64,000 bases of DNA from Cryobacterium sp. PH29-G1. Lineage in GTDB: Bacteria; Actinomycetota; Actinomycetes; Actinomycetales; Microbacteriaceae. The position numbers were made by a program, and so were the translations under genes. Every line of letters starts with the position of its first letter. Positions within the stretch are counted from its first letter, which is position 1. The stretch spans positions 62,001-126,000 of the forward strand of contig NZ_JASISY010000008.1 in NCBI RefSeq assembly GCF_030063365.1, in the 5' to 3' direction. Of the stretch, positions 42,624 to 63,027 are shown in pieces. Under the pieces are notes generated by a model that did no database searches, had not been told where the DNA came from, and was given only the letters and a program-made list of their open reading frames with translations.

Positions 42624-43669
42624 TGCGGGTCCTCCAGTCGTTTCCGGAGGGGCGCGCCACGACGAATCCCTACCTGCTGCAACTGAGCAGGTCGATCAGC
42701 CCGCATGTGGAGGTGCTCGGCTTCACCTGGCGGCGCGCACTCACAGCACGCTACGACGTCTTCCACGTGCACTGGCCCGAAATTCTGCTGCAGGGCCGCA
42801 CGCCAGCGCGGGCGTTGGCGCGACGGATGTTGGTTCGTCTGTTTCTCGCGCGGCTGCGATGGCGCCGAACGGCGGTGGTGCGCACCGTGCACAATGTACG
42901 CAGCCACGAGTCGTCGCCCCGGCACGATCAACGGCTACTTCGACGCTTCGATGAACGCACCACCGTGTGGATTCGGCTCAATGCGTTCACCCCGGTGCCG
43001 CCGGGCGCACTGGCCTGCACCATTCCGCACGGCGATTATCGTGACTGGTACTCGGCCCAAACGCCGGGTACGCCCATACCTGGCCGCCTCCTCTATTTCG
43101 GTCTCATTCGTGCGTATAAAGGCGTGGACGTCTTGGTCGACTCTTTTCGACAACTCAACAAGAGCGACCCTGAGCCCAACACGCAGCACGCCGTACGGGA
43201 AGCTACGGTAACCACCGCAGCGACGCTGCGCATCGTCGGATCACCCCAATCACCGGAACTGGCCCGACGCCTGCGGGTCGCTGCGGCCGACGACCCACGC
43301 ATCGCGCTCATGCTGCGCCACGCGAGCGATACCGAATTGGTGGATGCCATCGGTGCCGCGCAACTGATCGTGCTGCCGTACGCCGAGATGCACAACTCGG
43401 GCGCCGCCCTGCTGGCACTATCGCTAAACCGCCCAGTATTGGTGCCACGGAACGCTGTGACCACAGCACTGGCCGAGGAGATCGGTGCGGATTGGGTTTT
43501 CACCTATGACGGACCGCTGTCGCCTCAGGTCTTGGTCGACACGATCGCGCAGACACGGCGACCGCGCAGCACTCTCACCCCCGACCTATCGAACCGCCGG
43601 TGGGCTGCCGGAGCAGCCGACCACATAGAAGCGTATGACTGCGCCGTGCGTTCACTGCGATCAGACTAA
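42623..43669 (+). CDS. Glycosyltransferase (GT-B fold, GT4-like)
   Basis: 348 residues from GTG 42623, whose first base is the last base of the BY-kinase stop codon, so it is coupled. The N-terminal part has LLQLSRSI and YDVFHVHWPEILL, a pattern of GT4-like enzymes acting on lipid-linked sugars. RLLYFGLIRAYKGVDVLVDSF opens the donor domain and QLIVLPYAEMHNSGAALLALSLNRPVLVP holds the nucleotide-sugar site. The substrate cannot be inferred. The gene ends inside a 17-bp tandem repeat. Confidence 0.9.
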   Translation: MRVLQSFPEGRATTNPYLLQLSRSISPHVEVLGFTWRRALTARYDVFHVHWPEILLQGRTPARALARRMLVRLFLARLRWRRTAVVRTVHNVRSHESSPRHDQRLLRRFDERTTVWIRLNAFTPVPPGALACTIPHGDYRDWYSAQTPGTPIPGRLLYFGLIRAYKGVDVLVDSFRQLNKSDPEPNTQHAVREATVTTAATLRIVGSPQSPELARRLRVAAADDPRIALMLRHASDTELVDAIGAAQLIVLPYAEMHNSGAALLALSLNRPVLVPRNAVTTALAEEIGADWVFTYDGPLSPQVLVDTIAQTRRPRSTLTPDLSNRRWAAGAADHIEAYDCAVRSLRSD

Positions 43670-43719: not shown

Positions 43720-44799
43720 TCAGGACCCGGCGAACAGCCACTCGTCCGCGGCGAGACGACCGTCGACAGCAGGCAAGTCGTCTGCGGCGGGGCGAGGAGC
43801 CCGCAGGGCCTGAACCACGGCATCCGCTAGCTGCTCCGGCGCGCTGTCCGGGTCGACCACGCCGTGGCCATGTTCACTCAACCAGGTCGCGAGGCCGGTC
43901 TCGGTCGTGGTCACGATGCGACAGCCGTGTGCGAGGCCCTCGACGATCGGCAGCCCCACCTGCTCGCGCCACGTGGCCGTCGGCTGGCTGGGTAGCGCCA
44001 GCACGCACGCACGCCGCAACTGCCGGTGAATCTCGCTGCGGGATGGGTCGACGATCAGCTCGATCGTCGGGTCGTTCGCAACGGCCTCGTGCGCCAGACT
44101 CTCCAAAGCGCCTTTGCCGATGAGGGTGAGGCGTGCATCGGGACGAAGCGCGGTCACCTGCGGCCAGGCCGCGAGTATGTTCGGCAGCCCTTTGCGCGGA
44201 ACGAACGCCCCGAGAAAGACCACCCGACCCGAGTCGTTGCCCGTATCCTGCGGGCAACCGCACGGAGCGGGCAAAGCGGGTATGACGGCGGAGATGGCGT
44301 CACGAGCCGGTTCGGGTAGCGCCACACGGTAGGTGACCCGAGCAGCATCCGTGCCGAAGACAATGCGGTCGGTTTGGTGCCACACAAAGCGGGCCGCAAT
44401 ACCGTTGAGAGTGCGGCGCAGTCGCGATCGTGCGCCGCACTCGCGTTCGAATGGATCAGCATTTTCCAGAGCGTAGGTGACGATGGTCGCTGGGCGACCG
44501 CCGAGTCGTGCCCGGAGGCGGAGCGCGCTAATCGCCAGCGCACTGGCCCACACGCTGGACAGCATGAGCGGTTCGCAGATTTCGAGGATCGTGACCGGAG
44601 AACGGGCCAATTTCCAGGCGGCGCTCACCGGGCGGGCCTGCAGAACGACGAGCCCCTCGGTGAGTTCCTCGTGAAAGTCATACCTCTTAATACGATAAAG
44701 AATGGCAGCTGTCGGCAACTCGTGCGCACGCTCGAGGTGCGCGCTGCGCAGGGTGCGGTACAGTCGGGCCCGGTCGGTCAGAATGCGATTGCTAGCCAC
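43720..44799 (-). CDS. Glycosyltransferase family 4 protein
   Basis: 359 residues from GTG 44799, chosen because it overlaps the stop of the upstream GT2 gene by 8 bp. A longer frame to 44880 is only the GT2 shadow. GT-B fold with an acceptor domain (~1-185) and a donor domain opened by VVFLGAFVPRKGLPNILAAW. The C-terminal EQVGLPIVEGLAHGCRIVTTT carries the conserved EX7E-type Glu pair region. It is co-transcribed with the GT2 gene on the strand opposite the PGT operon. Confidence 0.9.
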   Translation of the reverse strand: MASNRILTDRARLYRTLRSAHLERAHELPTAAILYRIKRYDFHEELTEGLVVLQARPVSAAWKLARSPVTILEICEPLMLSSVWASALAISALRLRARLGGRPATIVTYALENADPFERECGARSRLRRTLNGIAARFVWHQTDRIVFGTDAARVTYRVALPEPARDAISAVIPALPAPCGCPQDTGNDSGRVVFLGAFVPRKGLPNILAAWPQVTALRPDARLTLIGKGALESLAHEAVANDPTIELIVDPSRSEIHRQLRRACVLALPSQPTATWREQVGLPIVEGLAHGCRIVTTTETGLATWLSEHGHGVVDPDSAPEQLADAVVQALRAPRPAADDLPAVDGRLAADEWLFAGS

Positions 44800-45766
44800 G
44801 CTTGTACTCGTGATAGACCGACCCCACCGAACCGGCCAGCATCCCCGCGCCCCGAGCGGCCGTACGCAGGCCGCGGGCACGCAACGGCAGCTGTCCGACG
44901 AGTGATCCGGCGAGGTAACGCACTATCCCCCCGCAGACCCGTACGGCACCGCGCGCCTGCAGATTCATCCGAACGAGAAGACGTCGGCCATTTTCCGTTT
45001 CGTCCAGGTTGATCCGACTCCAGGTGTTGCCCATGCGGAACGCACGGTGCAGCACCCACTCCCGGGTGAGACGATCTGCCGGCACAATATCGATGACGGT
45101 GGCTTCATCGCACCAGATCATCTGCCCGCCGCGCTGGTGCAGTTGCCGGGTGAACAGCGAGTCCGACCCGCCGGACAGCCCGAAACGCTCGTCAAAACTG
45201 AGCCCGAGCCGGCGCACCTGGGCGAGATCGAGCAGCAAATTATTCGTGGCGGCCAGTGCTACCGGCGTACCGGTTACGAAACGGCGACGCTCAAAAAATC
45301 CGCCTGCGCGAATCCACTGCTCGGGCTCGATATCGTACTGCGAGAGCACCGGGCCAACGACAGCAGCGGGTCGGTAGGCCGAATAGGTGTCAAGCAGCTG
45401 CACGAGCCAGTGGCTGCTGGGCCGTTCATCATCGTCGATAAAGATGAGCAGATCCGCGTCGCGCCCTTCCTGCAGCGCACGGTTACGAGCCGCGGCGATA
45501 CCCGGCGTTGGTTCGTGCACGTACCGTATGGGTGCCGGCGGGATCGAGGCCGGCTCTCCCTCGTGCACCCAACTGGGCTCGGTCACGAGGGCGCGCGCAC
45601 CGGCATCGGGATCGTTGTCGACGACGACGATCTCTACCGGCGCGAGCACCATCTCGGCTTGGTCGAGCAGCTCCGGCAGGAGTTCCTCAAGGTCAACGGG
45701 GCGCCGATAGGTCAGCACGGCGATGACTACGCGTTGGTCAGTCGTGGATCGGTTGACAGGCGACAT
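44792..45766 (-). CDS. Glycosyltransferase family 2 protein
   Basis: A 324-residue GT-A enzyme with a strong ribosome site (AGAGGAGG) before ATG 45766. The nucleotide-sugar fold is seen in VVIAVLTYRRPVDLEELLPEL and EIVVVDNDPD. The DxD-type metal site is IFIDDDERPSSHWL. The acceptor part has GGSDSLFTRQLHQRGGQMIW and the ADRLTREWVLHRAFRMGNTW segment. The C-terminal ~60 residues are hydrophobic/basic and may lie on the membrane. Confidence 0.93.
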   Translation of the reverse strand: MSPVNRSTTDQRVVIAVLTYRRPVDLEELLPELLDQAEMVLAPVEIVVVDNDPDAGARALVTEPSWVHEGEPASIPPAPIRYVHEPTPGIAAARNRALQEGRDADLLIFIDDDERPSSHWLVQLLDTYSAYRPAAVVGPVLSQYDIEPEQWIRAGGFFERRRFVTGTPVALAATNNLLLDLAQVRRLGLSFDERFGLSGGSDSLFTRQLHQRGGQMIWCDEATVIDIVPADRLTREWVLHRAFRMGNTWSRINLDETENGRRLLVRMNLQARGAVRVCGGIVRYLAGSLVGQLPLRARGLRTAARGAGMLAGSVGSVYHEYKRG

Positions 45767-45838: not shown

Positions 45839-48800
45839 TCAATTGGCTCGCGTCACGATGAGATCATCAAAGGTGGCGGTGACGGGTGAGACAGTAGCGG
45901 TCGACCCCAGGTAGAAGGACAGTCCGACCGCACCGGATGTCTGCAGGGCGGCAGTTGCATCTGTCGCCGTGGTCTGCCACGCGGTTGGCTCCGGGGTGCC
46001 GAGGGCCCAGACCTTGGCGCGAAGGGTGGTCGGCGTCGAACCCGTGACCTGCAGTCTCAGCTGCACCGCACTTCCCGTTGTATAGGTCAGGCCGGTGATG
46101 TTTTGAGCTTTCAGGGTGGTAGCACCACGCATAAGCTGCAGCTGAACCACTCCGGTCGACAGGTTTTTCATCCGCACTCGATAGTCGTCCGTGCCCACGC
46201 GGCGACCGATCAGGGAGGTGTACGCGCCGGAACCGGTCGCATCCTGCTGGAGAGTCGTCGTTACGAGCATGTCGGTGTCGAGCAGGGACACATCGGAGAG
46301 ATAGGCGTTGACGGTTCCTCCGGCGGAGGCCTTGAGCGCTCCGACTCCGCCGCTCACCGAGTAGTTCGATGCGGAACCGGTTGTGGACCAAACTCCACCG
46401 GTGTCTGCGGAGCCCAACCCGGTCGCAACGGTGCGGGAGAACCCGTCGGTGGCCAACGGGCTGGTCGGATCAACGTCCGGCACCAGAACAGTTTGAGTGG
46501 TCTGCGCGGTTGCCAGCGAGTTGTCGGTCACGGTGAGGAGCACGGTGTAACTCCCCGCGGACGCGTAGGCGTGCGACGCGGTCACTCCGGTGCCGGTGCT
46601 ACCGTCACCGAAGTTCCAGGCGTAATTGGTAATGGTGCCGTCACTGTCGGCGGCGGCCGAGGCATCCACCGCAATCGCGAGCGGTGTCGTCTGGTAGCTG
46701 AAAGCAGCGGTCGGCGGCACGTTCGCCGGCGGGTTGGTGGCAACGATCGTTCGGGTCGTAGCCGTGCTGGCCCCGGAGTTGTCGGTGACGGTGAGCGTGA
46801 CCGGGTAACTACCGGCGGACGCGTAGGAGTGCGTAGCGGTGACGCCGGTTGCGACGACGCCATCACCGAAGTTCCAAGCGTAACTGGTGATGGTGCCGTC
46901 GGAGTCGGCAGACCCCGACGCGTCCGCGCTCAGCGTGCGATAGCTGACAGCGCTGCTGAATGAAGCGGTTGGCGGCACGTTCGCCGCCGGACCGGATCGA
47001 CCGACCGAGTTGTGCCGGGCGATCGCGCTGGCGCTGAGAACCGTGTTGTATACGGCAACCTCGTCAATATCAGCCGCGATATAGTCGCTCGTCGGTCGGC
47101 TGGTCCAGCCGCTGAGATTGTCACCACCAATGCGCCAGTACCCCTGGATTGGAGCGGCCGAGGTAGTGTCGGTGCGCTGGGCGGCCAGAGCCCCATCGAC
47201 GTACAACGACATTCCGTTGGCCCCGACCGATGCGACGATGTGGTGCCATTGCCCGTTGTTGTATGCCGCAGTCGTATTCACGGTGCGCAGAATGCCCGGC
47301 TTCACGCCGAACCAGATACGTCCGGCGTTGTCCATATAGACCTGACGATCGTAGGCCGCTGAGGCACCGGTCGCCGCGCTGCCCAGTCCGATGATCTTTC
47401 CCCCGCGGGTGGTGGTGGTCTTCACCCACGCTTCAACGGTGAAGGCGCCCCGTGGCGTCTCGAAGGCGGACGATGCGGCCGTTCCCGCCGTGGTGCCGCT
47501 AAATCGTGAGGCTGTACCCGAGTCTGCGGCGAGCGCCCCGGCCACATTGCGCGTGACACCGGTGCCCGTGGTTTCATTTGAGCCCGCAGCCCAGTCGTAG
47601 GCCGTCGTACCGCTGGGTTCACCGAGCGGCCAGTACGACGAGGGCGAGTCACTCATTACGGTCTTGGCGTAGGCGTTGTACTCGCCGGAACCGGAGACAG
47701 TCACGCTCGTCGGGTTGCCGGTTTTGAGATTGCCCAAGGAGTCTCGAACGCTGACCCGATAGGAATAGGTCTGGCCCGGCGTGAGTCCGGTGTCTGTGAA
47801 GCCCATAGCCGGTCGGGACCAGTCCGTTGACAGGCCGGTCACCGTACCGACGGAGACGCCGTCCCGCAGCACCTCGTAGGTGAGCTGTTCATTGTCCCGG
47901 TCGAATGCCGCTTTCCACCCGATCCGGGCAGTACCGGCCGACAGGGATTCTACGGTGGGAACGAAAGCGGATGCCGCAAAGGCCGCGTTTGCCACGCGCG
48001 GGCCTTCTTTATTGGGGGCGATGGACGTGCTGGCGAAGCGAACCAGCCCCTGCTGGCCCTTGTTGTTCACGTTGGTGAATTCTCCGCCGTAGATCAGGTA
48101 CTGACCGTTGGAGGTGACGGTCCACGGCCCCTGGCCCTGACCGGTGAAGGTGCCCGAATTGATCTCCGGATAGAACGTCAAGATACTGGGGCTTGGCTTG
48201 CCGGTGAAACTAAAGTAACTGCCGACCGCATTGGGGGTGAGAGTGCCGGTTACCGCCGTGGAGAAGGTCATGGTGCGGTGATACGAGCGGGGCGAGGTCT
48301 CGACGGGCCCGCCCATGTTTCCGCAGTAGTGCGTGTGGCCCGTGGTGTACACAACGTTGCCCACCGGAACTGCGGAATACGTGTCGCCATGGCAGTCTTC
48401 CATCCAGATGAGTGATCCGTCGCTCCAGTTGGCACGGAACGTGCCCTCGAAGTTAGCCCCGCTGCCGTAGTCATAGCCGGTACCGAAGGCGCCATCCGCG
48501 GATGAGGTCAGGCTCGTGATGGCACCATTGACGCCGGCATTGCGAATAATCGTGTTCACTGCCCAGGGCAGGGACGCCCCGGTGACCGAGTCCGTGGCGG
48601 CCATGCCATACCCGGGAGCGTCACTGTTGTTGTAGGAGGTGAAGGAACCGCCGAGGAGAACCTTGGTGCCGTCTGGCGAGACCGTCATCGCGTTGACCGA
48701 CCCGCCGACCGGGTTTCCGGTCCAGTTGCGCAGTGCTCCGTTAGACGCGGAAAATGCGGCGATTTGATTGCGGGCGACCCCGCTGGCCGAAGTGAACACA

Positions 48801-49435
48801 CCCCCGACGTAGACGGTATCGCCGTAGATCGCCAGACTCTTCACCGAGGCGTTGACCGTCGGCGCCCAGCTGGAGACGAGCGAGCCGCTGGCCGTGTCGA
48901 ACGCGGCCAGGCGGTATCGAGCCACCCCTCCGACGGTCGTGAAGTATCCTCCAGCGTAGATGCGGGTGCCGTCGGCGGATGCGACGAGTGACCGAACGGT
49001 ACCGTTAACGTCGGGATTAAAGCTCGCGATCAACTCACCCGTTGTGAGATTGTACGCGAGCAGGTTATTGCGCACGACCTCGTTAACTCCCGGGCCTGAG
49101 CCAGCGGGTCGGGCCGTGGTGAATTCGCCGCCGGCGTAGACCGTGTTGCCGACAATCACCTGGGACCAGACGACGCCGTTGATCTGGGTCGTTGGCAGGG
49201 AGTCGGCGGCAACGGTTACCGGGGTGCCGGCATCCACCGGGCTCGTGTCGGCCTGCGCCATCAGCGGGGCCGTCAGAACACCCGCCAGTACGGTCACGGA
49301 TACCGTCGTGCCGGTTAGTACACGCATCCAGCCGGACTGCACCGACCGGGAACCTCCCGTCAGTGAGTCATCGGATCGCGCCGTCGAACGGCTAACGTGC
49401 AGACGATTAGCATGCAGGCGAGACAGAGGGCGCAC
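45839..49435 (-). CDS. Secreted propeller-Fn3-LamG-PKD-PKD surface protein (propeller paralogue A)
   Basis: A 1198-residue protein. GTG 49435 has AAGGA six nt upstream. It gives a long basic n-region and a signal peptide ending LMAQADT (~64). Residues ~75-475 form seven blade-like repeats (VYAGGEFT, IYAGGYFT, VYVGGVFT, VLLGGSFT, FGTGYDYGSG, VYTTGHTHYCG, LIYGGEFT). Then come an Fn3-like domain (~480-580), a LamG/ConA-like domain (~590-800, GAFTVEAWVKT), two PKD domains (~805-975, each with YAWNFGDG) and a C-terminal ~210-residue beta domain beginning DGFSRTVATGLGSADTGG. No anchor is visible, so it is probably released or matrix-bound. Paralogues B and C follow in the same locus. Confidence 0.9.
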   Translation of the reverse strand: MRPLSRLHANRLHVSRSTARSDDSLTGGSRSVQSGWMRVLTGTTVSVTVLAGVLTAPLMAQADTSPVDAGTPVTVAADSLPTTQINGVVWSQVIVGNTVYAGGEFTTARPAGSGPGVNEVVRNNLLAYNLTTGELIASFNPDVNGTVRSLVASADGTRIYAGGYFTTVGGVARYRLAAFDTASGSLVSSWAPTVNASVKSLAIYGDTVYVGGVFTSASGVARNQIAAFSASNGALRNWTGNPVGGSVNAMTVSPDGTKVLLGGSFTSYNNSDAPGYGMAATDSVTGASLPWAVNTIIRNAGVNGAITSLTSSADGAFGTGYDYGSGANFEGTFRANWSDGSLIWMEDCHGDTYSAVPVGNVVYTTGHTHYCGNMGGPVETSPRSYHRTMTFSTAVTGTLTPNAVGSYFSFTGKPSPSILTFYPEINSGTFTGQGQGPWTVTSNGQYLIYGGEFTNVNNKGQQGLVRFASTSIAPNKEGPRVANAAFAASAFVPTVESLSAGTARIGWKAAFDRDNEQLTYEVLRDGVSVGTVTGLSTDWSRPAMGFTDTGLTPGQTYSYRVSVRDSLGNLKTGNPTSVTVSGSGEYNAYAKTVMSDSPSSYWPLGEPSGTTAYDWAAGSNETTGTGVTRNVAGALAADSGTASRFSGTTAGTAASSAFETPRGAFTVEAWVKTTTTRGGKIIGLGSAATGASAAYDRQVYMDNAGRIWFGVKPGILRTVNTTAAYNNGQWHHIVASVGANGMSLYVDGALAAQRTDTTSAAPIQGYWRIGGDNLSGWTSRPTSDYIAADIDEVAVYNTVLSASAIARHNSVGRSGPAANVPPTASFSSAVSYRTLSADASGSADSDGTITSYAWNFGDGVVATGVTATHSYASAGSYPVTLTVTDNSGASTATTRTIVATNPPANVPPTAAFSYQTTPLAIAVDASAAADSDGTITNYAWNFGDGSTGTGVTASHAYASAGSYTVLLTVTDNSLATAQTTQTVLVPDVDPTSPLATDGFSRTVATGLGSADTGGVWSTTGSASNYSVSGGVGALKASAGGTVNAYLSDVSLLDTDMLVTTTLQQDATGSGAYTSLIGRRVGTDDYRVRMKNLSTGVVQLQLMRGATTLKAQNITGLTYTTGSAVQLRLQVTGSTPTTLRAKVWALGTPEPTAWQTTATDATAALQTSGAVGLSFYLGSTATVSPVTATFDDLIVTRAN

Positions 49436-49509
49436 GAGGATTCCTTACTCGGGTGAGGTGCCGGGCCGTCAGCTAGCCGACGCGTTCCTCGGAGTATAGT
49501 GAGAATCTT

Positions 49510-49570
49510 TCACGGATGAATGCCCCCTTTCCGGGGGTGCCTTCCCCTGCCCGTTCGGGGCAGCCCTCAG
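49510..49570 (-). terminator. Possible double hairpin after the membrane-anchored protein gene
   Basis: On the minus strand CTGCCC-CGAA-GGGCAG and CCCCC-GGAAA-GGGGG follow one another within 60 bp of the stop at 49580. There is no proper T-run. The region also separates this gene from paralogue A. Confidence 0.3.
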
Positions 49571-49579
49571 AAACCGCGA

Positions 49580-50302
49580 TCAGCGCGGTGCCGCGCCCTC
49601 AAAGAGCACGATCGGCACGCCAGCGGAGTAATCCACGGCGATGCGCACCCGATCGCGTTGATCGCTCGGCACGGTGAAAACAAAGACTCCCTGCCGGGTC
49701 GCCCCAGGGGGGACCGATTCGGGGAACGGAGCTCCGCCCGAAGCCGTCAGTTCCGTGGCGGGACTCTGTTCGTCGCCGAAGAACAGGTTGACGACAGTGG
49801 ACGTCAACGCCACGGCGTCTGGCGTGTCGTTGCGCACGGACACGGCAAAACGCAGGGACGGACCGCCGACCTCTCCCGGTCCGCGGGCCACTCCGTCGAC
49901 CGCCTCCAGTTTGCCAATGCTGAACACCACGCCGGGCACGGCGGCGGCGGAGTCGGTCAGCGGTACGGGCGCCTGCGCGGCAGGCGGTGCCGGTTCCGCC
50001 ACGACCTCGGTCGGTCCGGGAGCCGCCTCCGGAGGTACTGCAGAAGTCGGGTCGGGCGATGCGTCGGACGATGGCACCGCGCTCGGCGTGGAAGAGGGCC
50101 GTTGGCTCGGCGTGGCGCTTGCGCTAGCCCCGGCCGCGCTCGGCTCGGCCCTATTCGACGCGGCGACCCCGGCGACGACGAGCACGACGATGAGCAGGGC
50201 GAGCACAGCGGATGCGATGATCCACCAGACGCGCCGCCGTTTGTTCGCCTGCCGCCCCGCGGCGGGGCCGGAGCTGTTCTCGACGGGCTGGCGCACTGAC
50301 AT
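49580..50302 (-). CDS. Single-pass membrane protein with extracytoplasmic beta domain, hypothetical
   Basis: 240 residues: a short basic cytoplasmic segment (ANKRRR), one transmembrane helix (~26-48, WWIIASAVLALLIVVLVVAGVA), a ~75-residue Ser/Pro/Ala-rich linker and a C-terminal beta-sandwich-like domain (~130-240). The core of that domain (LRFAVSVRNDTPDAVALTS, VPPGATRQGVFVFTVP) resembles telokin-like DUF4352 domains. It lies between propeller paralogue A and a divergent glycosyltransferase, so it may belong to the cell-surface part of the polysaccharide locus. Function unknown. Confidence 0.75.
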   Translation of the reverse strand: MSVRQPVENSSGPAAGRQANKRRRVWWIIASAVLALLIVVLVVAGVAASNRAEPSAAGASASATPSQRPSSTPSAVPSSDASPDPTSAVPPEAAPGPTEVVAEPAPPAAQAPVPLTDSAAAVPGVVFSIGKLEAVDGVARGPGEVGGPSLRFAVSVRNDTPDAVALTSTVVNLFFGDEQSPATELTASGGAPFPESVPPGATRQGVFVFTVPSDQRDRVRIAVDYSAGVPIVLFEGAAPR

Positions 50303-50427
50303 GGTGGATCTCCAAAATGCTCGGGTGGTTACACGATCGGGTAGAGCCGCCGTGCAACTGTTAAATACACTGCAGCCATTAATACACGGGGCACACCCGC
50401 ATTCCTAGGGGGTGCACGCGCCCCGTA

Positions 50428-50473
50428 CGGGGGTGTCCGCTCACGCTGTCCGGGGGTATCCGCTCACGCTGTA
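50428..50473 (+). repeat. 23-bp tandem direct repeat in the promoter region of a glycosyltransferase gene
   Basis: Two adjacent units (50428-50450 and 50451-50473) share CGGGGGT-TCCGCTCACGCTGT with a G/A difference inside and a C/A difference at the last base, so 21 of 23 positions match. The repeat ends 49 bp before the ATG at 50523 and may be a tandem regulator site. Confidence 0.8.
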
Positions 50474-50522
50474 CAGTGTGAAAACCCGACCCGAGCAGCA
50501 TTCGAACGACGAGGCGACAGAC

Positions 50523-51596
50523 ATGAAAATTGCCATCCTGCACGGCAGCAACGATGCCTATGGCGCCTCCAAGGTGCTGCGCCAGGAGGTGGAGTGCCTG
50601 GTGGCCCTCGGACACGACGTGCTCGTTGTGGTTCCGCACGCCGGCCCACTGGCCACCGACCTGGCGCACTTGAGGCCGGCCGTGTCGGTCGTCGTTGATC
50701 CCTCGTTGGTGGTGCTGCGCCGCAGCAAACTGGCCGACCTGCTGCATCCGCTAACCTTGCGCCGAGACGTGGCCCTGGCCGACATCGTCGTGCTGTGGAC
50801 GCTGGCACTCAGCGCCTACATACCCCTGCTGCGAGTGCGCCGTCGGCGTTTCTACGTCTCGGTGCATGAGCTGCTGCTGGGTCGAGTTGGCGGGCTGCTC
50901 GTGCGCGGGCTGTTGGCCCCCGGCACCTTTCCGGTGTGCGCGTGCAGCGAAGCCACAGCGCACTGGCTGCACGACCATGGCGTGGGCCGTGATCGCTTAA
51001 CGGTCACATCTCCGGTGTTCAGCGAAGTTGAAGCGATCCCCACCCGCGCCGTGCACGACCCGCTGACGCTGGCCGTTGTGGGCAGGGTCAACGGGCACAA
51101 GGGCCACCTCGAAGTCGCCCAGGCGTTCCAATCGCCTTCGCTGTCCGGCTCCGGTTGGAAGCTCCTGCTTTTCGGCGCCCCGTACCCCGGGCAGGATGAC
51201 GCCTTGGAGGACGTGCGGGCGCTGGTGCAACGTGATCCGCGCATTGAATACCGCGGTGAAGCGGCATCCGTGGCGGCCATCGCCGATGAAATCGATGCCG
51301 TTGCCTGTTTTCCATCAACGCCGGAACCATTCGGGCTGGTGCCGATCGAGGCGTGGCGGGTCGGCGTTCGATCCGTCGGTTTCGCCGACGGCGGCGCGGG
51401 AGAAGTTCTCCCGGTAGTTGGCGGCCTGGGGGTGCGCCGCACAAACTCCCCCGCTCGCGACATTGCGGCCGCGCTCGTCGGCTTGGCGATCAGCTTGAAG
51501 ACACAGGCCCCTCTGCCCGCACCGGCTCAGGTCAACCCGTTCTACTCGGCCGGTCGTCGTCGCGAACTCATCGCTCGGGTGGTCGCACGCTGTTAG
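50523..51596 (+). CDS. Glycosyltransferase family 4 protein
   Basis: 357 residues from ATG 50523. A longer frame upstream runs through the 23-bp repeats and has no family features. It opens with the GT4 pattern MKIAILHGSNDAYGASKVL. The donor domain has LAVVGRVNGHKGHLEVAQAF, KLLLFGAPYPGQDDAL and PSTPEPFGLVPIEAWRVGV, with the conserved Glu pair. Its stop codon overlaps that of convergent propeller paralogue B by 4 bp. Confidence 0.93.
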   Translation: MKIAILHGSNDAYGASKVLRQEVECLVALGHDVLVVVPHAGPLATDLAHLRPAVSVVVDPSLVVLRRSKLADLLHPLTLRRDVALADIVVLWTLALSAYIPLLRVRRRRFYVSVHELLLGRVGGLLVRGLLAPGTFPVCACSEATAHWLHDHGVGRDRLTVTSPVFSEVEAIPTRAVHDPLTLAVVGRVNGHKGHLEVAQAFQSPSLSGSGWKLLLFGAPYPGQDDALEDVRALVQRDPRIEYRGEAASVAAIADEIDAVACFPSTPEPFGLVPIEAWRVGVRSVGFADGGAGEVLPVVGGLGVRRTNSPARDIAAALVGLAISLKTQAPLPAPAQVNPFYSAGRRRELIARVVARC

Positions 51597-53479
51597 GTGG
51601 CGGGCACCTCGGGGATCGCACGACGAGTGTCATCCGCTGCCGGCGGTGAATTCGGAGCGCTCTGTTGCCCGGGAAACACCAGATCAGACTCCAGGTCGGG
51701 GGCGGGGTCCGGCAGGGGCAGGACCTCCGGCGCATTTTCCGGAGCTGGCTCCGGGGCCAGCTCCGGGGCCAGCGTCGCATCGGGGATGTTATCCGGCGCG
51801 CTCGGCGCAATGGTTGCGTCGGGCTTCACCTGTGCAGCCCCGCCGGTGGCTTTGATACTCGCCGAAGATCCGGTGACCGAGTTGCCGAACGGGTCGGTAG
51901 CCCGCAGCTGGTACGTGTACGTCGTTCCACCGGATCGCCCGGTGTCGGTCCAGCTGATTCCGGGCCGGTTCCAGTCGGTGGAGAGCCCGGTTAGGGTACG
52001 CACGACGACACCATTACGCAGCACCTGGTAAGTGAGTTGCTCGTTGTCGCGATCATAGTTGGACGTCCAGGTGACCCGCACCGAGTTAGCACTGGGAGTG
52101 CTGAGCGTAGGCTGAAAGTCGGAACTTTTCGCTTTCGGCCCCTCTTTGTTGGGGGCGATCGAGGTAACGGCGAAGCGCGCCAGGCCCTGTTGCCGTTTGT
52201 TGTTCACGATGGTGAACTCACCGCCGTAAAGAACGTATTGGGAGTTGGCCGCGAGATTCCACGGCCCCTGGCTCTGGCCGGTGTAGGTGCCGGTGTTGAT
52301 CTCCGGATAGAACGCCAGCAGGGTCGGCCGAGGCTTGCCCTCGAAGTTGTAATAGCTGCCGCCGGTCACGTTCCGGGTGATAGTGCCGGTGGCAGCCTTG
52401 GTGAAGGTCAGTGTGCGGTGGTAGCTGCGCGGGCTCGTCTCCCCGAAACCGCCGATGTTACCGCAGAAGTGGGCATGGGCCGTGGTGTATACGACGTCCC
52501 CCACCGGCACCGCCGAGTAGGTGTCGCCATGACAGTCTTCGATCCAGACGGTGTTGCCATTCGACCAGCTCGCCCGAAACGTACCCTCGAACATCGCACC
52601 GGAACCATAGTCATACCCGGTGCCGTACACCCCGTCAGCGTCAGAGGTCAGCGACAAAATAGCCCCATTGGGCCCGGCATTCTTAATGAGCTTGCCGATG
52701 TTCCAGGTCAGGCCGGCCCCGGTGCTTGAATTCGTCGCAGCCATGCCGTAGCCCGGCGTCGTCGCGCCGTTGTACGACGTGAACGAACCGCCAATGACAA
52801 CGCGGTCGCCGTTCGGCGAGACCGTCAGCGCGTTGACCGCACCATCGGCAATGCTCCCCTTCCACGCCCCGAGAGCGCCCGTAGCACTGCTGAAAGCGGC
52901 GATTCTTTGACGAGCCTGGCCACTGGCCGAGGTGAAACTCCCGCCGGCATATACCGTGCCGCCAAAAGTTCCCAGGGCCCGCACCGTGCCGTTCGCCGTG
53001 GGCGTCCACGTCGACACCAACTGCCCGGTGGACGCATCGAAGGCCGCGAGGCGTGTCCGCGTTTGCGTGCCCACCTTGGTGAACGCACCCCCGACATAGA
53101 TGCGGGAACCGTCCGGGGAAGCGGTGACCGCCCTGACCGTGCCATTGAGGCTCGGATCAAAAGACGTCATCACACCCGTCGACAGGTCGTATGCCATGAG
53201 ATTATTGCGCGACACCTCGCTTGTACCGGCCGACGCCCCCGCCGGTCGCGCTTTGGTGAATTCACCACCGACGTACACGGTGTTCCCCACGATTACCTGT
53301 GACCACACCACACCATTGATCTGCGCGGTGGGCAGAGAATCCGCCGCAACGGTGCGCGGAATCGCCACAACAGGCGGCGACGTATCCGCTTGGGCCAGAC
53401 CCGCCCCGGTCAGAACCGTCATGGCGAGGGCCGTTAGGGCGATGAGCGCGGGAACCGGGGAACGGAATTGCCACAACAT
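51593..53479 (-). CDS. Secreted propeller-Fn3 surface protein with Pro/Glu-rich tail (propeller paralogue B)
   Basis: 628 residues from ATG 53479, with GAGG about 8 nt upstream. The signal peptide LIALTALAMTVLTGAGLAQADT ends near residue 33. A seven-blade region (~40-440) includes VYVGGEFTKARP, IYVGGAFTKVG, VYAGGSFTSASG, VVIGGSFTSYNG, VYGTGYDYGSG, VVYTTAHAHFCGN and VLYGGEFTIVNN. An Fn3-like domain (~450-545) follows, then a low-complexity acidic Pro/Ala/Glu tail (~550-628, PELAPEPAPENAPE). It lacks the C-terminal beta domain of A and C. No sorting signal is seen. Its DNA is very close to that of paralogue C, which indicates recent duplication. Confidence 0.88.
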   Translation of the reverse strand: MLWQFRSPVPALIALTALAMTVLTGAGLAQADTSPPVVAIPRTVAADSLPTAQINGVVWSQVIVGNTVYVGGEFTKARPAGASAGTSEVSRNNLMAYDLSTGVMTSFDPSLNGTVRAVTASPDGSRIYVGGAFTKVGTQTRTRLAAFDASTGQLVSTWTPTANGTVRALGTFGGTVYAGGSFTSASGQARQRIAAFSSATGALGAWKGSIADGAVNALTVSPNGDRVVIGGSFTSYNGATTPGYGMAATNSSTGAGLTWNIGKLIKNAGPNGAILSLTSDADGVYGTGYDYGSGAMFEGTFRASWSNGNTVWIEDCHGDTYSAVPVGDVVYTTAHAHFCGNIGGFGETSPRSYHRTLTFTKAATGTITRNVTGGSYYNFEGKPRPTLLAFYPEINTGTYTGQSQGPWNLAANSQYVLYGGEFTIVNNKRQQGLARFAVTSIAPNKEGPKAKSSDFQPTLSTPSANSVRVTWTSNYDRDNEQLTYQVLRNGVVVRTLTGLSTDWNRPGISWTDTGRSGGTTYTYQLRATDPFGNSVTGSSASIKATGGAAQVKPDATIAPSAPDNIPDATLAPELAPEPAPENAPEVLPLPDPAPDLESDLVFPGQQSAPNSPPAADDTRRAIPEVPAT

Positions 53480-53723
53480 TGAAGAACCTCTTCTTTGCGC
53501 GATTTGCGGCCGCGGAACTACCGCCGCAGTGCAGAAAATACACCGAGTCCCGCTTCCTGCACAGCCCGCAGGCGGCAGCACTGCGCGGGGCCGAACTGTG
53601 CGAGTGAGTCGCTGACCGGCCGCCCTAGCCACGCCCGGCCAGAAACGCTAGGATTCCTCATTACCGCGCCCCATACTCTCCACCCGAATCGTTCCGCGCT
53701 CCGCGCAGCACCCTGAGAGAAAC

Positions 53724-54245
53724 TTGAGCACCGAAATGGCATCAGACATCGACGAAACCGCCAACGACCCCACGACGCCACTCCGGATCGGCTATGCCGC
53801 CGGCGCATTTGATCTTTTTCATGTGGGCCACCTCAACATTCTCAAGCACGCGAAGAGCCAGTGCGATTACCTGATCGCGGGCGTAGTTTCGGATGAGATG
53901 CTCCAGCTGACGAAGGGAATCACTCCGGTCGTGCCTCTGTTTGAGCGCCTCGAAATCGTGCGGCATATCTCGTTTGTCGACGAAGCGGTTGCCGAAGTCG
54001 TCGAGGACAAGCTGGAGACGTGGCGTCAGGTGCGTTTCGACGTGTTCTTCAAGGGTGATGACTGGCGCGGCACCCCTCGAGGCACTCGCCTGGAGCGCGA
54101 GTTTGCTGAGGTCGGCGTCGACGTCGTGTACTTTCCATACACGGTCAATACCTCCAGCACCATGCTGCGCCGAGCGCTTGACGCGCTGACCAGACCGGAT
54201 CTGAGCGCACGCTGGAAAGCGCACGCAGCCGAGGGGACGTCCTAG
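53724..54245 (+). CDS. TagD-like cytidylyltransferase (nucleotidyltransferase family)
   Basis: A 173-residue protein. The start is TTG 53724 or ATG 53736; GAGAGA precedes the first closely. The HxGH fold is plain: GYAAGAFDLFHVGHLNILKHAK near residue 25, followed by AGVVSDEMLQLTKGITPVVP and FKGDDWRGTPRGTRLE. The RTxGISTT signature of glycerol-3-phosphate cytidylyltransferase is altered to YTVNTSSTMLRR. It probably makes a CDP-activated alcohol from CTP and an alcohol phosphate. In this locus the CDP-alcohol phosphotransferase at 40240 could use that product. Confidence 0.85.
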   Translation: MSTEMASDIDETANDPTTPLRIGYAAGAFDLFHVGHLNILKHAKSQCDYLIAGVVSDEMLQLTKGITPVVPLFERLEIVRHISFVDEAVAEVVEDKLETWRQVRFDVFFKGDDWRGTPRGTRLEREFAEVGVDVVYFPYTVNTSSTMLRRALDALTRPDLSARWKAHAAEGTS

Positions 54246-54322
54246 CCTGTCCCCGCTCCATTGACGTCTGGCCCACAGCGGGGCCGAGCGGATTCCAACA
54301 GTCCGCTCGACCCCGACGCCCG

Positions 54323-56596
54323 CTACTCAGCTGCCTCGGTGACGACTAGTTCATCAAAGGTGGCCGTCGCTGGGGTCGTCGAGACACCCGGCAACAGCGC
54401 AAGGGCCACGTACCCGCGCGATTGCAGCGCGGAGGCCGAGTCACTCACGGAGACCTGCCATGCGGTCGGCTCCGCAGAGCCCGCTTTCCACACCTTGGCA
54501 GCGATCACGGTCGGCGACACCCCGACGACCTGCATTCTGACACGCAACGGCGCGCCGACAGCATCGGTCACGCCGGTCGCACTCGTGGAGGCGAGTGTGC
54601 GATTGGCAGCGCCGGCGATACGAAGGGTCACATCGCCCGCAACGGAATACTGCAGGCTCGCGCGGTACTCGTTTGAGCCGACCTTGCGACCGACCACAAT
54701 AATGGTGGCCGGTGTTCCCTGAGATGTCAGGGTCGCTGTCACGCTCAGGTCAACATCCGTCTGGGACACGGCGAGTAGCCCTGCTCCCGCGATCCGGCCG
54801 GGCTCGATCGTGAAACGGGCCACCCCGTCAGCGACGGAGTAATTGCTGGACGGCGAAAGATTCGCCCACTTGCCTCCCGTGTCAGCGGTCCCCAGCCCCG
54901 AGCCCACGCTGCGCCCGAAGGCATCTTGCGCATAGGTGACAACCGGATCCGGTTCGCCCGATCCGGTTGCCGTCACGGTCGCTGCCGCGCCGGTTACCGT
55001 ATTACCGAACGGGTCAATGGCCCGAATCTTGTAGCTGTAGGCCGTTCCCCCGGTCACACCGGTGTCGGTCCAGGTGATGTCGGGCCGGTTCCAATCCGTG
55101 GACAGCCCGGTTTGGGTTTCGACAACGACGCCATCGCGCAACACCTCGTAGGTGAGCTGTTCGTTGTCGCGATCGTAGTTGGACGTCCAGGTGACGGCGA
55201 CGGTATTGGCCGTCGGCGTGGCCAGGTTGGGCAGAAAGTTTGTGCCGCTCACCCGCGGCCCCTCTGTGTTGGGGGCGATCGAGGTGACGGCGAATCGCGC
55301 CAGGCCCTGCTGTCGCTTGTTGTTCACAATGGTGAACTCCCCGCCGTAGAGAACGTATTGGGAGTTCGCGGTGAGATTCCACGGCCCCTGCCCCTGCCCG
55401 GTGTAGGTTCCGGTGTTGATATCCGGATAGAACGCCAGCAGTGTCGGACTCGGCCGTCCCTCAAAGTTGAAATAGCTGCCCCCGGTCACATTTCGGGTGA
55501 TAGTGCCCGTGGCAGCCTTGGTGAACGTCAGGGTGCGGTGATAACTGCGCGGGCTCGTCTCCCCGAAACCGCCAATGTTGCCGCAGAAGTGAGCGTGGGC
55601 GGTGGTGTAAACCACGTCTCCCACCGGCACCGCCGAATAGGTATCGCCGTGACAGTCCTCTATCCACACGGTGTTGCCATTGCGCCAACTCGCGTGAAAG
55701 GTACCCTCGAACATCGCGCCGGAACCGTAGTCATACCCGGTACCGTAGACACCGTCCTCATCCGAGCTCAGCGACAGGATGGCCCCATTGGGCCCGGCAT
55801 TCTTGATGAGCTTGCCGATGTTCCAGATCAGGCCGGCTCCGGTGCTTGAATCGGTCGCCGCCATGCCGTAGCCCGGAGTCGTCGAACCGTTGTACGACGT
55901 GAACGAACCGCCAATAACAACGCGATCCCCGCTCGGCGAGACGGTCAGCGCGTTGACCGCGCCGTCAGGCACGTTCCCTTTCCACGCTCCCACCACGCCC
56001 GTAGAACCGACGAACGAGGCGATCTTCTGCCGGGATTCCCCGCTGGCCGATGTGAAGCTGCCCCCGGCGTACACCGTGTCAGCGAATGCTCCGAGGGCCC
56101 TGACGGTGGAATTCGCCGTGGGTTTCCACGTTGACACCAACTCTCCGGTAGCCGTATCGAAGGCCGCGAGTCGGGTTCGGGTTTGCGTGCCCACCTTGGT
56201 GAAGGCGCCCCCGACGTAGATGCGGGAACCGTCCGGGGAAGCGGTGATGGCCCTGACCGTGCCATTGAGGCTCGGATTAAAGGATGTCATCACTCCGGTC
56301 GTCACGTTGTAGGCCATGAGATTATTGCGCGACACTTCGCTCGTGCCCGAGGCCGCACCGGCCGGTCGTGCACGAGTGAATTCGCCTCCGACAAACACGG
56401 TGTCACCCACGATCACCTGCGACCACACCACACCGTTGATCTGCGCCGTGGGTAGAGAATCGGCCGCGACGGTTGTGGGCAGAGAATTGTCCGGCGGTGC
56501 CGTGTCGGCCAGAGCACCCTGAACGGGAATAAGAAATGCCCCGATCAGAGACGCTAAAGCGATTAGTGATACTACCGGGGCACGCATTCGCCACAT
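54323..56596 (-). CDS. Secreted propeller-Fn3-lectin-like surface protein (propeller paralogue C)
   Basis: 757 residues from ATG 56596, with AGGA about 8 nt upstream. The signal peptide (VSLIALASLIGAFLIPV) ends before ALADT (~30). The seven-blade domain (~40-440) is nearly the same as in paralogue B (VFVGGEFTRARP, IYVGGAFTKVG, VYAGGSFTSASG, VVIGGSFTSYNG and so on), then an Fn3-like domain (~450-545). The C-terminal ~205 residues, beginning QDAFGRSVGSGLGTADTGG, match the last domain of paralogue A and resemble ConA-like carbohydrate-binding folds. No anchor is visible. It flanks the cytidylyltransferase opposite paralogue B. Confidence 0.88.
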   Translation of the reverse strand: MWRMRAPVVSLIALASLIGAFLIPVQGALADTAPPDNSLPTTVAADSLPTAQINGVVWSQVIVGDTVFVGGEFTRARPAGAASGTSEVSRNNLMAYNVTTGVMTSFNPSLNGTVRAITASPDGSRIYVGGAFTKVGTQTRTRLAAFDTATGELVSTWKPTANSTVRALGAFADTVYAGGSFTSASGESRQKIASFVGSTGVVGAWKGNVPDGAVNALTVSPSGDRVVIGGSFTSYNGSTTPGYGMAATDSSTGAGLIWNIGKLIKNAGPNGAILSLSSDEDGVYGTGYDYGSGAMFEGTFHASWRNGNTVWIEDCHGDTYSAVPVGDVVYTTAHAHFCGNIGGFGETSPRSYHRTLTFTKAATGTITRNVTGGSYFNFEGRPSPTLLAFYPDINTGTYTGQGQGPWNLTANSQYVLYGGEFTIVNNKRQQGLARFAVTSIAPNTEGPRVSGTNFLPNLATPTANTVAVTWTSNYDRDNEQLTYEVLRDGVVVETQTGLSTDWNRPDITWTDTGVTGGTAYSYKIRAIDPFGNTVTGAAATVTATGSGEPDPVVTYAQDAFGRSVGSGLGTADTGGKWANLSPSSNYSVADGVARFTIEPGRIAGAGLLAVSQTDVDLSVTATLTSQGTPATIIVVGRKVGSNEYRASLQYSVAGDVTLRIAGAANRTLASTSATGVTDAVGAPLRVRMQVVGVSPTVIAAKVWKAGSAEPTAWQVSVSDSASALQSRGYVALALLPGVSTTPATATFDELVVTEAAE

Positions 56597-56792: not shown

Positions 56793-58058
56793 CTAACCTT
56801 GATGGACCTCCACGAGGGTGTCGTCGGGCGTGTAATAGTTGTGAGACATCAGCACCTTCGTGGTCGACGGCGCAATGACCGCGCAGTCGTCGACCCGGGT
56901 ATTGCGACCGAAAGTATTGCCGCTGACAACCACCCCGTGCAGGGGTCCGTGCGCTTTCTCGGCGAGGTTGATGGAGCATCCACCGCCATCGACGATGTTG
57001 TTCGAGATGGTCAAATTGGACACGCCACCGCGGTCCTGTGTCACCTGCACGGAGGCATTCCATGCATCGGTCAGCCGATTGCCATCGATGAGGATGTTCG
57101 ATCCTTCCTGAATCTGAATGGAGTCGTCATGGCTCGGTGTGCCGCCCTGGTTGGGATCTCGGTCATAGTGCAGGTTGTCGTGAAGCCACGAGTCTGTGAT
57201 GGCAACATTCCCACCGGTGAGATGGATGCCGTCAACCACGCCGTGGATATTGACCCGGGTAGCCTCAAAGTTGTAGCCGTAGATTCCCTGAAAGTCGGGT
57301 GACGGCGCGGACGGGAAAAGCTCCGTGTCGATGATGCGCAGGTTCCGGTAACCGCCGAGGTTGCCGATCAGGGCCATCGGGCCGTTCAAGGCTCGTCCAC
57401 GCACGATCGAGTTTTTGATGGTGACGTCGGATGCTTCGACCTTGACCATGCCTCGAACGTCGAGGCTGTCGATTACGGTGCTGGCCTCCGTGATGATCAG
57501 GTCTCCCCAATGCACGGTCAGCGCTGTACCGGCCGGCACACCGGTGTTACTTTCATTCGGGATGCCCACCGTCGACGGCGGAGTGGGCGCCGGAGCCGGA
57601 GCGGGAACAGGCACGGGAACAGGCACGGGTGCCGGTACCGGAATTGGAGCTGGAGCAGGCACAGGCGCTGGCGCTGGCACCGGTAGCGGCGCGGGAGTGA
57701 GAATCGGTTCAGGAACCACCGGTTCAGGAACCACCGGTTCAGGAACCACCGGCTTCAAAATCACCGGCTCCGGAGCCACCGGTGATTTGAGCCGTGCCAG
57801 AAGCCAGCGCAGTTGCGCCGGAGACAGGCCTGATCCCGAGGAGACGTCGGCGGCGGGGCTCACGGACAGCCCAGCGCCCCACGGGGTGACCGTGTAGTTC
57901 AGCGGCGCAGCTTGGGCTGGCACGATTCCGATGGAGGCGCCCATGAGTCCGAGTGCGACAGAAGCGATGACCCTCGGGCGAGCACGACGGAAGGGGGAAG
58001 ATACTTTCTGGTTCGTGGGCAAGCGGTGCAATTTCGCGGTGAATGTCATTAATGTCAT
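56793..58058 (-). CDS. Secreted right-handed beta-helix protein with Pro-rich linker (paralogue 1)
   Basis: 421 residues from ATG 58058, which has AGGA upstream. ATG 58049 is a possible alternative. The signal peptide (~30-52, VIASVALGLMGASIGIVPAQAA) is followed by an LSPAQLRWLLARL helix (~80-95) and a long Pro/Val/Ala linker built of PEPVV and PAPVP repeats (~105-180; DNA 15-mers at 57706-57750). The parallel beta-helix domain (~190-421) includes VIDSLDVRGMVKVEASDVTIKNSIVRG, split across rungs, and SHDDSIQIQEGSNI. The layout suits polysaccharide lyases and hydrolases or binding proteins acting on exopolysaccharide. Catalytic residues cannot be assigned. Confidence 0.85.
   Translation of the reverse strand: MTLMTFTAKLHRLPTNQKVSSPFRRARPRVIASVALGLMGASIGIVPAQAAPLNYTVTPWGAGLSVSPAADVSSGSGLSPAQLRWLLARLKSPVAPEPVILKPVVPEPVVPEPVVPEPILTPAPLPVPAPAPVPAPAPIPVPAPVPVPVPVPAPAPAPTPPSTVGIPNESNTGVPAGTALTVHWGDLIITEASTVIDSLDVRGMVKVEASDVTIKNSIVRGRALNGPMALIGNLGGYRNLRIIDTELFPSAPSPDFQGIYGYNFEATRVNIHGVVDGIHLTGGNVAITDSWLHDNLHYDRDPNQGGTPSHDDSIQIQEGSNILIDGNRLTDAWNASVQVTQDRGGVSNLTISNNIVDGGGCSINLAEKAHGPLHGVVVSGNTFGRNTRVDDCAVIAPSTTKVLMSHNYYTPDDTLVEVHQG
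57706..57750. repeat. Three exact 15-bp tandem repeats inside the beta-helix gene
   Basis: GGTTCAGGAACCACC occurs three times in a row without change. It encodes the PEPVV-type linker repeats of paralogue 1 in frame, so it is a coding minisatellite rather than a regulatory site. Confidence 0.95.
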
Positions 58059-58261
58059 TTCGTGTCCTGCACACGTTTCGGGACGTGCTGGGCGAGGCAG
58101 CTGAAGGGAGCCGCCGGTCGTGGGTACAGCATTTCGTATCGGCAATACTCGGTCAATGAAAAGTTGTGAATACCTTGGGGCGCGCTCGAACGGGACGCCC
58201 CACTGGGGCCGCCGGTAGCGCGTGGAATCGCCGCGGCAGCTAGCGGGGGAACCTAACCGAC

Positions 58262-59266
58262 CTAACCGGCATGCACCGTGACTGTTTTGCTATCGGGCGT
58301 GTAGTAGTTGCGGGCCGTGCTGATCTTGGTCGTTCCGGGCGAAATGATCGCACAGTTGGTCACCTTGGTGTTGCGGCCGAACTTGTTGTCGGTGACCACA
58401 GTGCCGTAGATGGGGCCATAGGCTTTTTGGGCCACGTTGATTGTGCAGGCGCCACCGTCGGCGAAGTTGTTCTTGAAGGAGAAGTTCGACACATCTCCGG
58501 TGTCTTGGGTAATCTGCACCCCGGCGTTGTGGGAGCCGGTCAGGGTGCTTCCGTACACCTTGATGTTGCTGCCCTTTTGAATCTGGATGGAGTCATCGTG
58601 GCTCGCCTTGCCGCCCTGATTCGGGTCACTGGCGTAGTGCAGATTGCCGTGCAGCCAGGAGTCGGCGATGGTGACGTTGCTGCCGGTGATGTGCACGGCG
58701 TCGATGACTCCGTGGATGTCCAGACGGGTCGCGGTGAAGTTGTAGCCGTAGATTCCGTTCACATCGGGAGACGGTTTCGAAGGGTAGAGTTCCGAGTCGA
58801 TGATTTTCAAACCGGAACGTCCGCCCAGATTATTAATCAAGGCCGCCGGGGCGCTGAGGCTTCGACCGCGAATGATCGAGTTTTTGATCGTCACGTTGAT
58901 CGCGTTGATCTTGACGAGGCCGCGAATGTCGAGCCCGCTGATGACCGTGCCGGCCTTGGTGATGTTGAGGTCGCCGGTATAGACCTTGAGTGTCGTCCCA
59001 GACGGAACTCCGGTGGTGTCGGCACTCGCCGTAGCGGTGCGCACGGTACCTGCGGTTGCGGCTTGCGCGGGAGCAGCCAATCCAGCCAGCGGCAGAAGGA
59101 CGGCCAATACAGCCGCAGCCAAGGAGCTGACTCTTCTCTTGCTGAACGAACGTGACGCTTCTGGGCACACAGCGCGAGCTGTGGCATCGATGGTGGCGGA
59201 GGGGTGGCGGCTGTCGTGGCTGGGGGCTGAGGGTCGGCGATGGGAACGTGGGATAGTGTCGCTCAT
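58262..59266 (-). CDS. Secreted right-handed beta-helix protein (paralogue 2)
   Basis: 334 residues from ATG 59266 (no strong ribosome site; a longer upstream frame lacks family features). A long n-region precedes the signal peptide (VSSLAAAVLAVLLPLAGLAAP, to ~residue 70). After a short linker the beta-helix follows (~95-334): VISGLDIRGLVKINAINVTIK, GLKIIDSELYPSKPSPD and SHDDSIQIQKGSNIKVYGS. It aligns with the C-terminal domain of paralogue 1 to the end (VHAG stop versus VHQG stop) but lacks the Pro-rich linker. It may act on or bind the polysaccharide made by this locus. Its activity is unknown. Confidence 0.85.
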   Translation of the reverse strand: MSDTIPRSHRRPSAPSHDSRHPSATIDATARAVCPEASRSFSKRRVSSLAAAVLAVLLPLAGLAAPAQAATAGTVRTATASADTTGVPSGTTLKVYTGDLNITKAGTVISGLDIRGLVKINAINVTIKNSIIRGRSLSAPAALINNLGGRSGLKIIDSELYPSKPSPDVNGIYGYNFTATRLDIHGVIDAVHITGSNVTIADSWLHGNLHYASDPNQGGKASHDDSIQIQKGSNIKVYGSTLTGSHNAGVQITQDTGDVSNFSFKNNFADGGACTINVAQKAYGPIYGTVVTDNKFGRNTKVTNCAIISPGTTKISTARNYYTPDSKTVTVHAG

Positions 59267-59374
59267 GAAGTCATTTCGGGTGGTGCACGTTCGGGTATGC
59301 GCGTAAGGCAACCGCAGGGAGTCGCCGATAGTTATTAGAGTGTTACCCAAAAATGAAAATACGTCAAATTAACT

Positions 59375-62804: not shown

Positions 62805-63027
62805 TAGCCACCACCACCCGGGCCGTACAGGAACGATTCGGGCATCGTTTCTTATTGCACAGCCGCATCGTGCACAAGAATAGACGGCACTGGACCGCAG
62901 CGACAAGGGCGATCCACCTCAAACTGAGGGAACGTCACCCCCCGAGAAGGGGACTCGGGGACGGGCCGCATGGCCTGTATAGTGGCGATTTCGTGAGGGA
63001 TTTTCATCGTGCTACCGGAAGCAGCCT
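62805..63027. promoter_or_regulatory. Divergent promoter region between polymerase operon and glycosyltransferase
   Basis: 223 bp between the two divergent starts, with no coding frame. TATAGTG near 62978 could be a -10 for the plus-strand gene. No repeat or operator stands out. Confidence 0.35.

Follow-up and report, generated by a model that had tools for sequence, protein, structure and literature searches.

A predicted seven-bladed propeller family and its membrane partner in actinobacterial polysaccharide loci

Within a 64,000-nucleotide stretch of Cryobacterium sp. PH29-G1 (contig NZ_JASISY010000008.1, positions 62,001 to 126,000; hereafter the window), part of a 3.8-Mb genome (G000 in our numbering), three paralogous genes on the minus strand encode proteins built around a common predicted propeller core: propeller proteins A (45839..49435), B (51593..53479) and C (54323..56596). 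A Pfam scan of the window genes identified their surroundings as a Cryobacterium-type Wzx/Wzy polysaccharide locus, and open reading frames (ORFs), Pfam matches and hydropathy together bore out a preliminary description of this DNA, which had proposed three secreted paralogues in such a setting. Each of the three has a single N-terminal hydrophobic stretch, with no second strong one and no LPXTG motif, a hydropathy pattern from which we infer secretion. Directly upstream of A, on the same strand, lies a gene that the preliminary description had overlooked (acc, 49580..50302), encoding a 240-aa membrane protein with an immunoglobulin (Ig)-like domain, which is the most specific companion of the propeller family found here.

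The proteins differ in their C-termini, as had been claimed. Propeller protein A (1,198 aa from a GTG start, although a Met codon at 49327 is the likelier start) combines a signal peptide, the seven-bladed core with its Fn3 domain (47678..49243), a LamG domain (Laminin_G_3, residues 652–806; 47018..47482) and two PKD domains (46481..46978), the last two features by Pfam, with a ConA-like jelly roll at the C terminus (the C-terminal domain, CTD; 45842..46480). B (628 aa) consists of the core and Fn3 domain (51830..53380, the stretch used for the structure model) and a Pro/Glu-rich tail ending in IPEVPAT, without a CTD, and C (757 aa) carries core, Fn3 and a CTD (54329..54958) that is 41.5% identical to that of A. 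Modelled on 86 of 88 non-redundant rows (the two left out came from proteins without a propeller), the CTD is predicted to form a lectin-like jelly roll. It has its fold in common with its best structural match, CBM66 of Bacillus subtilis, but at only 14% identity over the aligned residues, and no match was found among Pfam families or, at E ≤ 1, among PDB sequences. CBM66-like tails also occur without a propeller in proteins of loci L098 (two copies), L101, L102, L103 and L105, those of L098 and L101 being β-helix proteins by Pfam. The B-type tails of the Cryobacterium loci (L037–L052; window counterpart 51593–51800) are Pro/Glu-rich, ending in PEVPA followed by A, T or D in 10 of the 16 loci, the window included. 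We also considered a decayed propeller gene in the gap between B and C (53480–54322), but the sequence there matched none of the three convincingly.

The core defines a coherent family. Alignment of 116 core sequences (139 matches reduced to 119 non-redundant rows, of which the three most divergent were dropped) showed conservation from end to end, with 38–88% identity to B. An AlphaFold2 prediction of the B core on this alignment yielded a seven-bladed WD40-like propeller followed by the Fn3 domain (predicted local distance difference test score, pLDDT, 95; predicted template modelling score, pTM, 0.92), and the model aligns with complete seven-bladed rings (top structural matches: WD40 binding scaffolds), from which the core is predicted to be a closed β-propeller. 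The seven blades of the preliminary description were thus recovered by counting in the model; its seven GGxFT-like repeats were not, the motif being present in only five of the blades. Because the sequences are conserved end to end and the model is confident, we reject a repeat artefact or chance resemblance. All three proteins exceed the curated Pfam cut-offs of two families, Rax2 (PF12768; 38.4, 48.4 and 41.5 bits for A, B and C versus 28.8), named after a fungal bud-site protein, and DUF5122 (PF17164; 29.5, 35.7 and 37.2 bits versus 27), with the best Rax2 stretch in B spanning only about blades 1–4. At E ≤ 1, nine PDB sequences matched the core profile (Fn3-type chains, two WD40-type and one CBM32, the last at E = 0.22), with no enzyme among them. 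The propeller family was undescribed among the matches listed in the open-licence PubMed Central literature.

The membrane partner was found from a conserved gap between a CDP-alcohol phosphatidyltransferase gene and the propeller gene in other genera. In the window its gene ends about 145 bp before the start of the A ORF. The product has a single strong transmembrane segment close to the N terminus (by hydropathy), a Ser/Pro-rich stalk and the Ig-like domain, which bears a weak similarity to DUF4352 as well as to the lipoproteins YcdA and YjhA. Its DUF4352 score lies below the Pfam cut-off (19.6 versus 25.9 bits), that of the L105 homologue above it (26.8 bits), and the transmembrane segment, the stalk and the specific pairing with a propeller set it apart from DUF4352. 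The partner alignment comprised 42 of 74 matches. Among 71 propeller loci from named genomes, 57 contain the partner, directly upstream of the propeller gene and on the same strand in 44 and elsewhere in the locus in 13 (seven of these, in Arthrobacter, 0.8–0.9 kb upstream); four further loci have too little upstream DNA to judge.

Across a class-level sample of 196 genomes (in which part of the first-look candidates per genome were scored for propeller and partner, the two samples being taken as the same genomes from identical settings and matching handles), 12 carry a full-length core (>550 bits). The partner was detected at E ≤ 1e-20 in 11 of these 12, spanning six family labels, and in none of the 184 others (Fisher P = 4e-17, or 1e-14 if weaker matches of 1e-8 to 1e-12 in three more class genomes are counted; both values ignore shared ancestry and are optimistic). 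At the genus level, among 25 genomes, all 15 with a full-length propeller have exactly one partner gene.

Propeller genes also keep company with polysaccharide genes well beyond Cryobacterium. For the counts per locus, those of the partner included, profiles were grown from genes of the window and the loci and applied to six-frame ORFs, some of which are cut at contig edges. A gene for a transferase, Wzz or Wzy, or more than one, was found within up to 10 kb per side in 61 of the 71 loci (45 of the 55 outside Cryobacterium). A CDP-alcohol phosphatidyltransferase gene occurs in 30 of the 71; in 22 it precedes a propeller gene on the same strand by no more than 2 kb. In addition, β-helix genes lie near propellers in 14 of the 16 Cryobacterium loci versus 7 of the 55 others, according to the profile used. 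By distance, a gene for a sugar-phosphate transferase or Wzz lies no more than 20 kb from 25 of the 36 propeller clusters, and these are spread over 25 of the 27 genomes, whereas 1.9 clusters would be expected at random (markers PF02397, 61 matches, and PF02706, 75 matches, in 27 genomes selected for strong propeller matches, with the weak-match genomes G001, G008, G012, G021 and G036 and 46 of 58 class genomes, whose matches were merely partial or distant, left out). This excess leads us to reject random genomic spread. Accordingly, of the two outcomes named in advance as speaking against the preliminary description (no closed propeller, or homologues scattered at random), neither appeared in the model or the distance test, and the co-occurrence that it had proposed to test was recovered. 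In the two genomes missed altogether (G086 and G184), glycosyltransferase and CDP-alcohol genes adjoin the propeller at G086:C5 and G184:C49. The nine remaining missed clusters, among which only that of G000 (L005) was read gene by gene, showed no adjoining polysaccharide genes; they comprise single copies of about 1,325–1,339 aa (G000, G013, G009, G018 and G020), one in G184 (C61) and three in G225.

A fourth paralogue of G000 (L005; G000:C25:206664-208490; 1,318 aa), with LamG, PKD and a C-terminal domain of the same kind, is flanked by genes for ferrochelatase, ALAD, an aminotransferase and an ABC transporter, with no membrane partner, and clusters in the tree with third copies sited in the polysaccharide loci of other species; in four related genomes, a propeller copy of about 1,339 aa is likewise distant from polysaccharide markers. 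In the same tree (a quick reconstruction with Shimodaira–Hasegawa-like approximate likelihood ratio test, SH-aLRT, support and many weak forks), the A and B lineages part inside Cryobacterium, with C as the sister of B (support 91). The propeller copies of Naasia (L060), Galbitalea (L069), Tersicoccus (L076) and Actinotalea (L070) cluster by genome and those of Arthrobacter form two clades of their own, for which reasons the propeller appears to have multiplied repeatedly. An origin of C as a copy of B with the tail of A is unsupported: its core is sister to that of B, but its CTD has no close relative in the DNA covered, where it is at most about 44% identical to any other. In genome G225 (L140 and L141) there are five propeller matches of full length, of which one contains an internal TGA, alongside three genes for the membrane partner. 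Two contigs labelled Planococcus sp. APC 4015 (L072 and L080) are probably mislabelled or contaminant, since they have 66–69% G+C and cluster with actinobacterial sequences.

On the plus strand, leading up to A, are genes for a polyprenyl sugar-phosphate transferase (Bac_transf; 37441..38988), a family 4 glycosyltransferase with DUF1972 (38990..40243), a CDP-alcohol phosphatidyltransferase (40240..41013), a Wzz/bacterial tyrosine kinase (BY-kinase) protein (41142..42623) and a glycosyltransferase slightly under the Pfam cut-off (42623..43669), followed on the minus strand by family 4 (43720..44880) and family 2 (44792..45766) glycosyltransferases; another family 4 glycosyltransferase lies between A and B (50412..51596, plus strand). 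Beyond C, the minus strand encodes a secreted right-handed β-helix protein (56793..58145, by Pfam), a second β-helix paralogue (58262..59350, matched by the β-helix profile and without a Pfam match of its own), two membrane acyltransferases (Acyl_transf_3; 59375..61485) and a Wzy-type polymerase (Wzy_C; 61482..62906), and the plus strand a glycosyltransferase-2-like protein (63028..63969, a weak Pfam match); a Wzx-type flippase gene starts at 63959 and continues beyond the window end. For the β-helix protein of the window, no sequence match meaningful for enzyme identification was found. A gene for a Cthe_2159-type carbohydrate-binding protein (33747–35294) lies a few kilobases outside the locus.

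We favour, with a probability of roughly one-half (about 0.52), the reading that A, B and C are secreted matrix proteins that bind polysaccharide, have a membrane partner and are produced along with the exopolysaccharide of the locus, and that propellers and partner probably hold the sugar coat together or onto the cell. The propeller–Fn3 core would then be the common and probably polymer-specific part, with the variable tails (LamG, PKD, CBM66-like jelly roll or Pro/Glu-rich) giving each paralogue a differing second contact or reach; with tails that differ in this way, the set could cross-link polymer to polymer, surface or cell. The membrane Ig-like protein would be the likely cell-side partner, docking or positioning the propeller at the envelope, and the neighbouring β-helix proteins may trim or modify the polymer. 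Several observations weigh against this reading: 10 of the 71 loci have no polysaccharide gene in the DNA covered (several are short contigs), and the fourth paralogue and some other copies are distant from polysaccharide markers; 10 of the 71 lack the partner despite covered upstream DNA, and G052 carries a propeller without it; conversely, G004 (L136) and G007 (L137), of the same genus, keep the partner and the sugar-transferase end of the locus with no detectable propeller, and the partner may therefore act alone. In addition, a set of conserved polar residues in blades 5–7 exceeds what a generic scaffold needs and may mean catalysis.

That set underlies the main alternative, in which the core would act outside the cell as an enzyme that modifies or cleaves polysaccharide, possibly with the help of a metal, while the LamG and CBM66-like tails hold the substrate; we consider it unlikely, and it retains the weight it has mainly through these residues. 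In the 116 rows, counted after the three most divergent of 119 had been dropped, polar or aromatic residues kept in at least 97% number four in blade 1, two in blade 2, none in blades 3–4 and 17 in blades 5–7 (E265, W279, D282, C283, H284, D286, Y288, Y298, H302, H304, C306, Y343, Q371, W374, Y382, E388 and R402 in core numbering), with longer stretches in blades 6 and 7 than in the other blades. The strand register suggests that many of them lie on one face, at the end of strand B or the D–A junction, which would place them in the loops of that face, their clustering in space being expected from the register only. The conserved set may be a metal or catalytic site (putatively E265, H284, D286, H302, H304 and E388, with a putative Cys283–Cys306 bridge) or a specific sugar site. 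Among 11 more distant relatives (221–403 bits, 10 loci), every one retains W279, C283, Y298, H302, H304 and C306 as well as an acidic residue at 265, and of the 10 whose blade 7 aligns all have R402 and nine have E388; yet H284 is replaced in all 11 and D286 in 10, a 184-bit relative lacks both E388 and R402, and two short relatives of about 425 aa keep W279, Y298 and H302 but have lost both cysteines and H304. Tails of the CBM type usually accompany enzymes, whereas the PDB matches of the core at E ≤ 1 include no enzyme and a single carbohydrate-related chain (the CBM32), its Pfam families are Rax2 and DUF5122, and its top structural matches are binding scaffolds. Propeller polysaccharide lyases are known (PL22, PL24 and PL25). 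A bolder version makes the core a new extracellular enzyme or ligase, perhaps dependent on a metal, that acts jointly with the membrane Ig-like protein in processing new polysaccharide or fixing it to the cell; the pair would then be an undescribed monoderm polymer-anchoring device and not a passive adhesin. This seems to us more doubtful still.

Because conserved polar residues concentrate in blades 5–7, a role in polymer assembly also keeps a small share of the probability. Propeller and partner might belong to the polymerisation, export or wall-attachment machinery, taking the chain from Wzy/Wzx and delivering or fixing it to the envelope, a proposal that fits the tightest association being with the membrane partner and the involvement of early-step genes such as the CDP-alcohol phosphatidyltransferase. 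We think it improbable: accessory matrix proteins would better account for the presence of several paralogues in a locus, with tails that diverge, and of a copy elsewhere, and in G004 and G007 the partner and the upstream genes of the locus persist in the absence of a propeller. Least probable in our view is that A, B and C are general surface adhesins whose targets are external (other cells, or the surfaces of plants, animals or minerals) and that lie incidentally in a variable surface-polysaccharide island, since, although LamG, PKD and Fn3 are common adhesin modules and the fourth copy sits among haem genes, the link to polysaccharide genes and partner recurs across several families in differing gene orders.

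The matrix-protein reading has a precedent, and the preliminary claim that no described system is built from such a set was too strong, because RbmC and Bap1 of Vibrio cholerae follow the same design. They are paralogous secreted propeller proteins with differing accessory domains, whose propeller binds polysaccharide directly, one being encoded between polysaccharide clusters and the other outside among unrelated genes (PMC10102183); RbmB, from the same cluster, is described as a lyase with a predicted parallel β-helix (PMC11637428). The likeness to the window extends to secreted paralogues (here by hydropathy) with one propeller and variable carbohydrate-binding-type domains encoded with polysaccharide genes, to a copy outside the locus among unrelated genes (here L005) and to a nearby β-helix gene. 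In contrast, the RbmC/Bap1 propeller has eight blades (PMC10102183), compared with seven in our model; the accessory domains there are β-prism and crystallin domains, compared with Fn3, LamG, PKD and CBM66-like domains here; and V. cholerae is Gram-negative, unlike the monoderm host of the window. The nine PDB sequences that the core profile matched at E ≤ 1 included no Bap1/RbmC chain, a result compatible with distant kinship. Given the differing blade number and the lack of detected homology, we place the window family outside the RbmC/Bap1 family; we think that RbmC/Bap1 is nonetheless the closest known design, and that the window family, while not a member, works like one. We know of no membrane Ig-like partner for RbmC or Bap1.

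To our knowledge, how exopolysaccharide is retained on monoderm actinobacterial cells is poorly understood. The secreted propeller and the membrane Ig-like protein together constitute a defined gene pair that is cleanly deletable and serves as a marker of such loci in several actinobacterial families.
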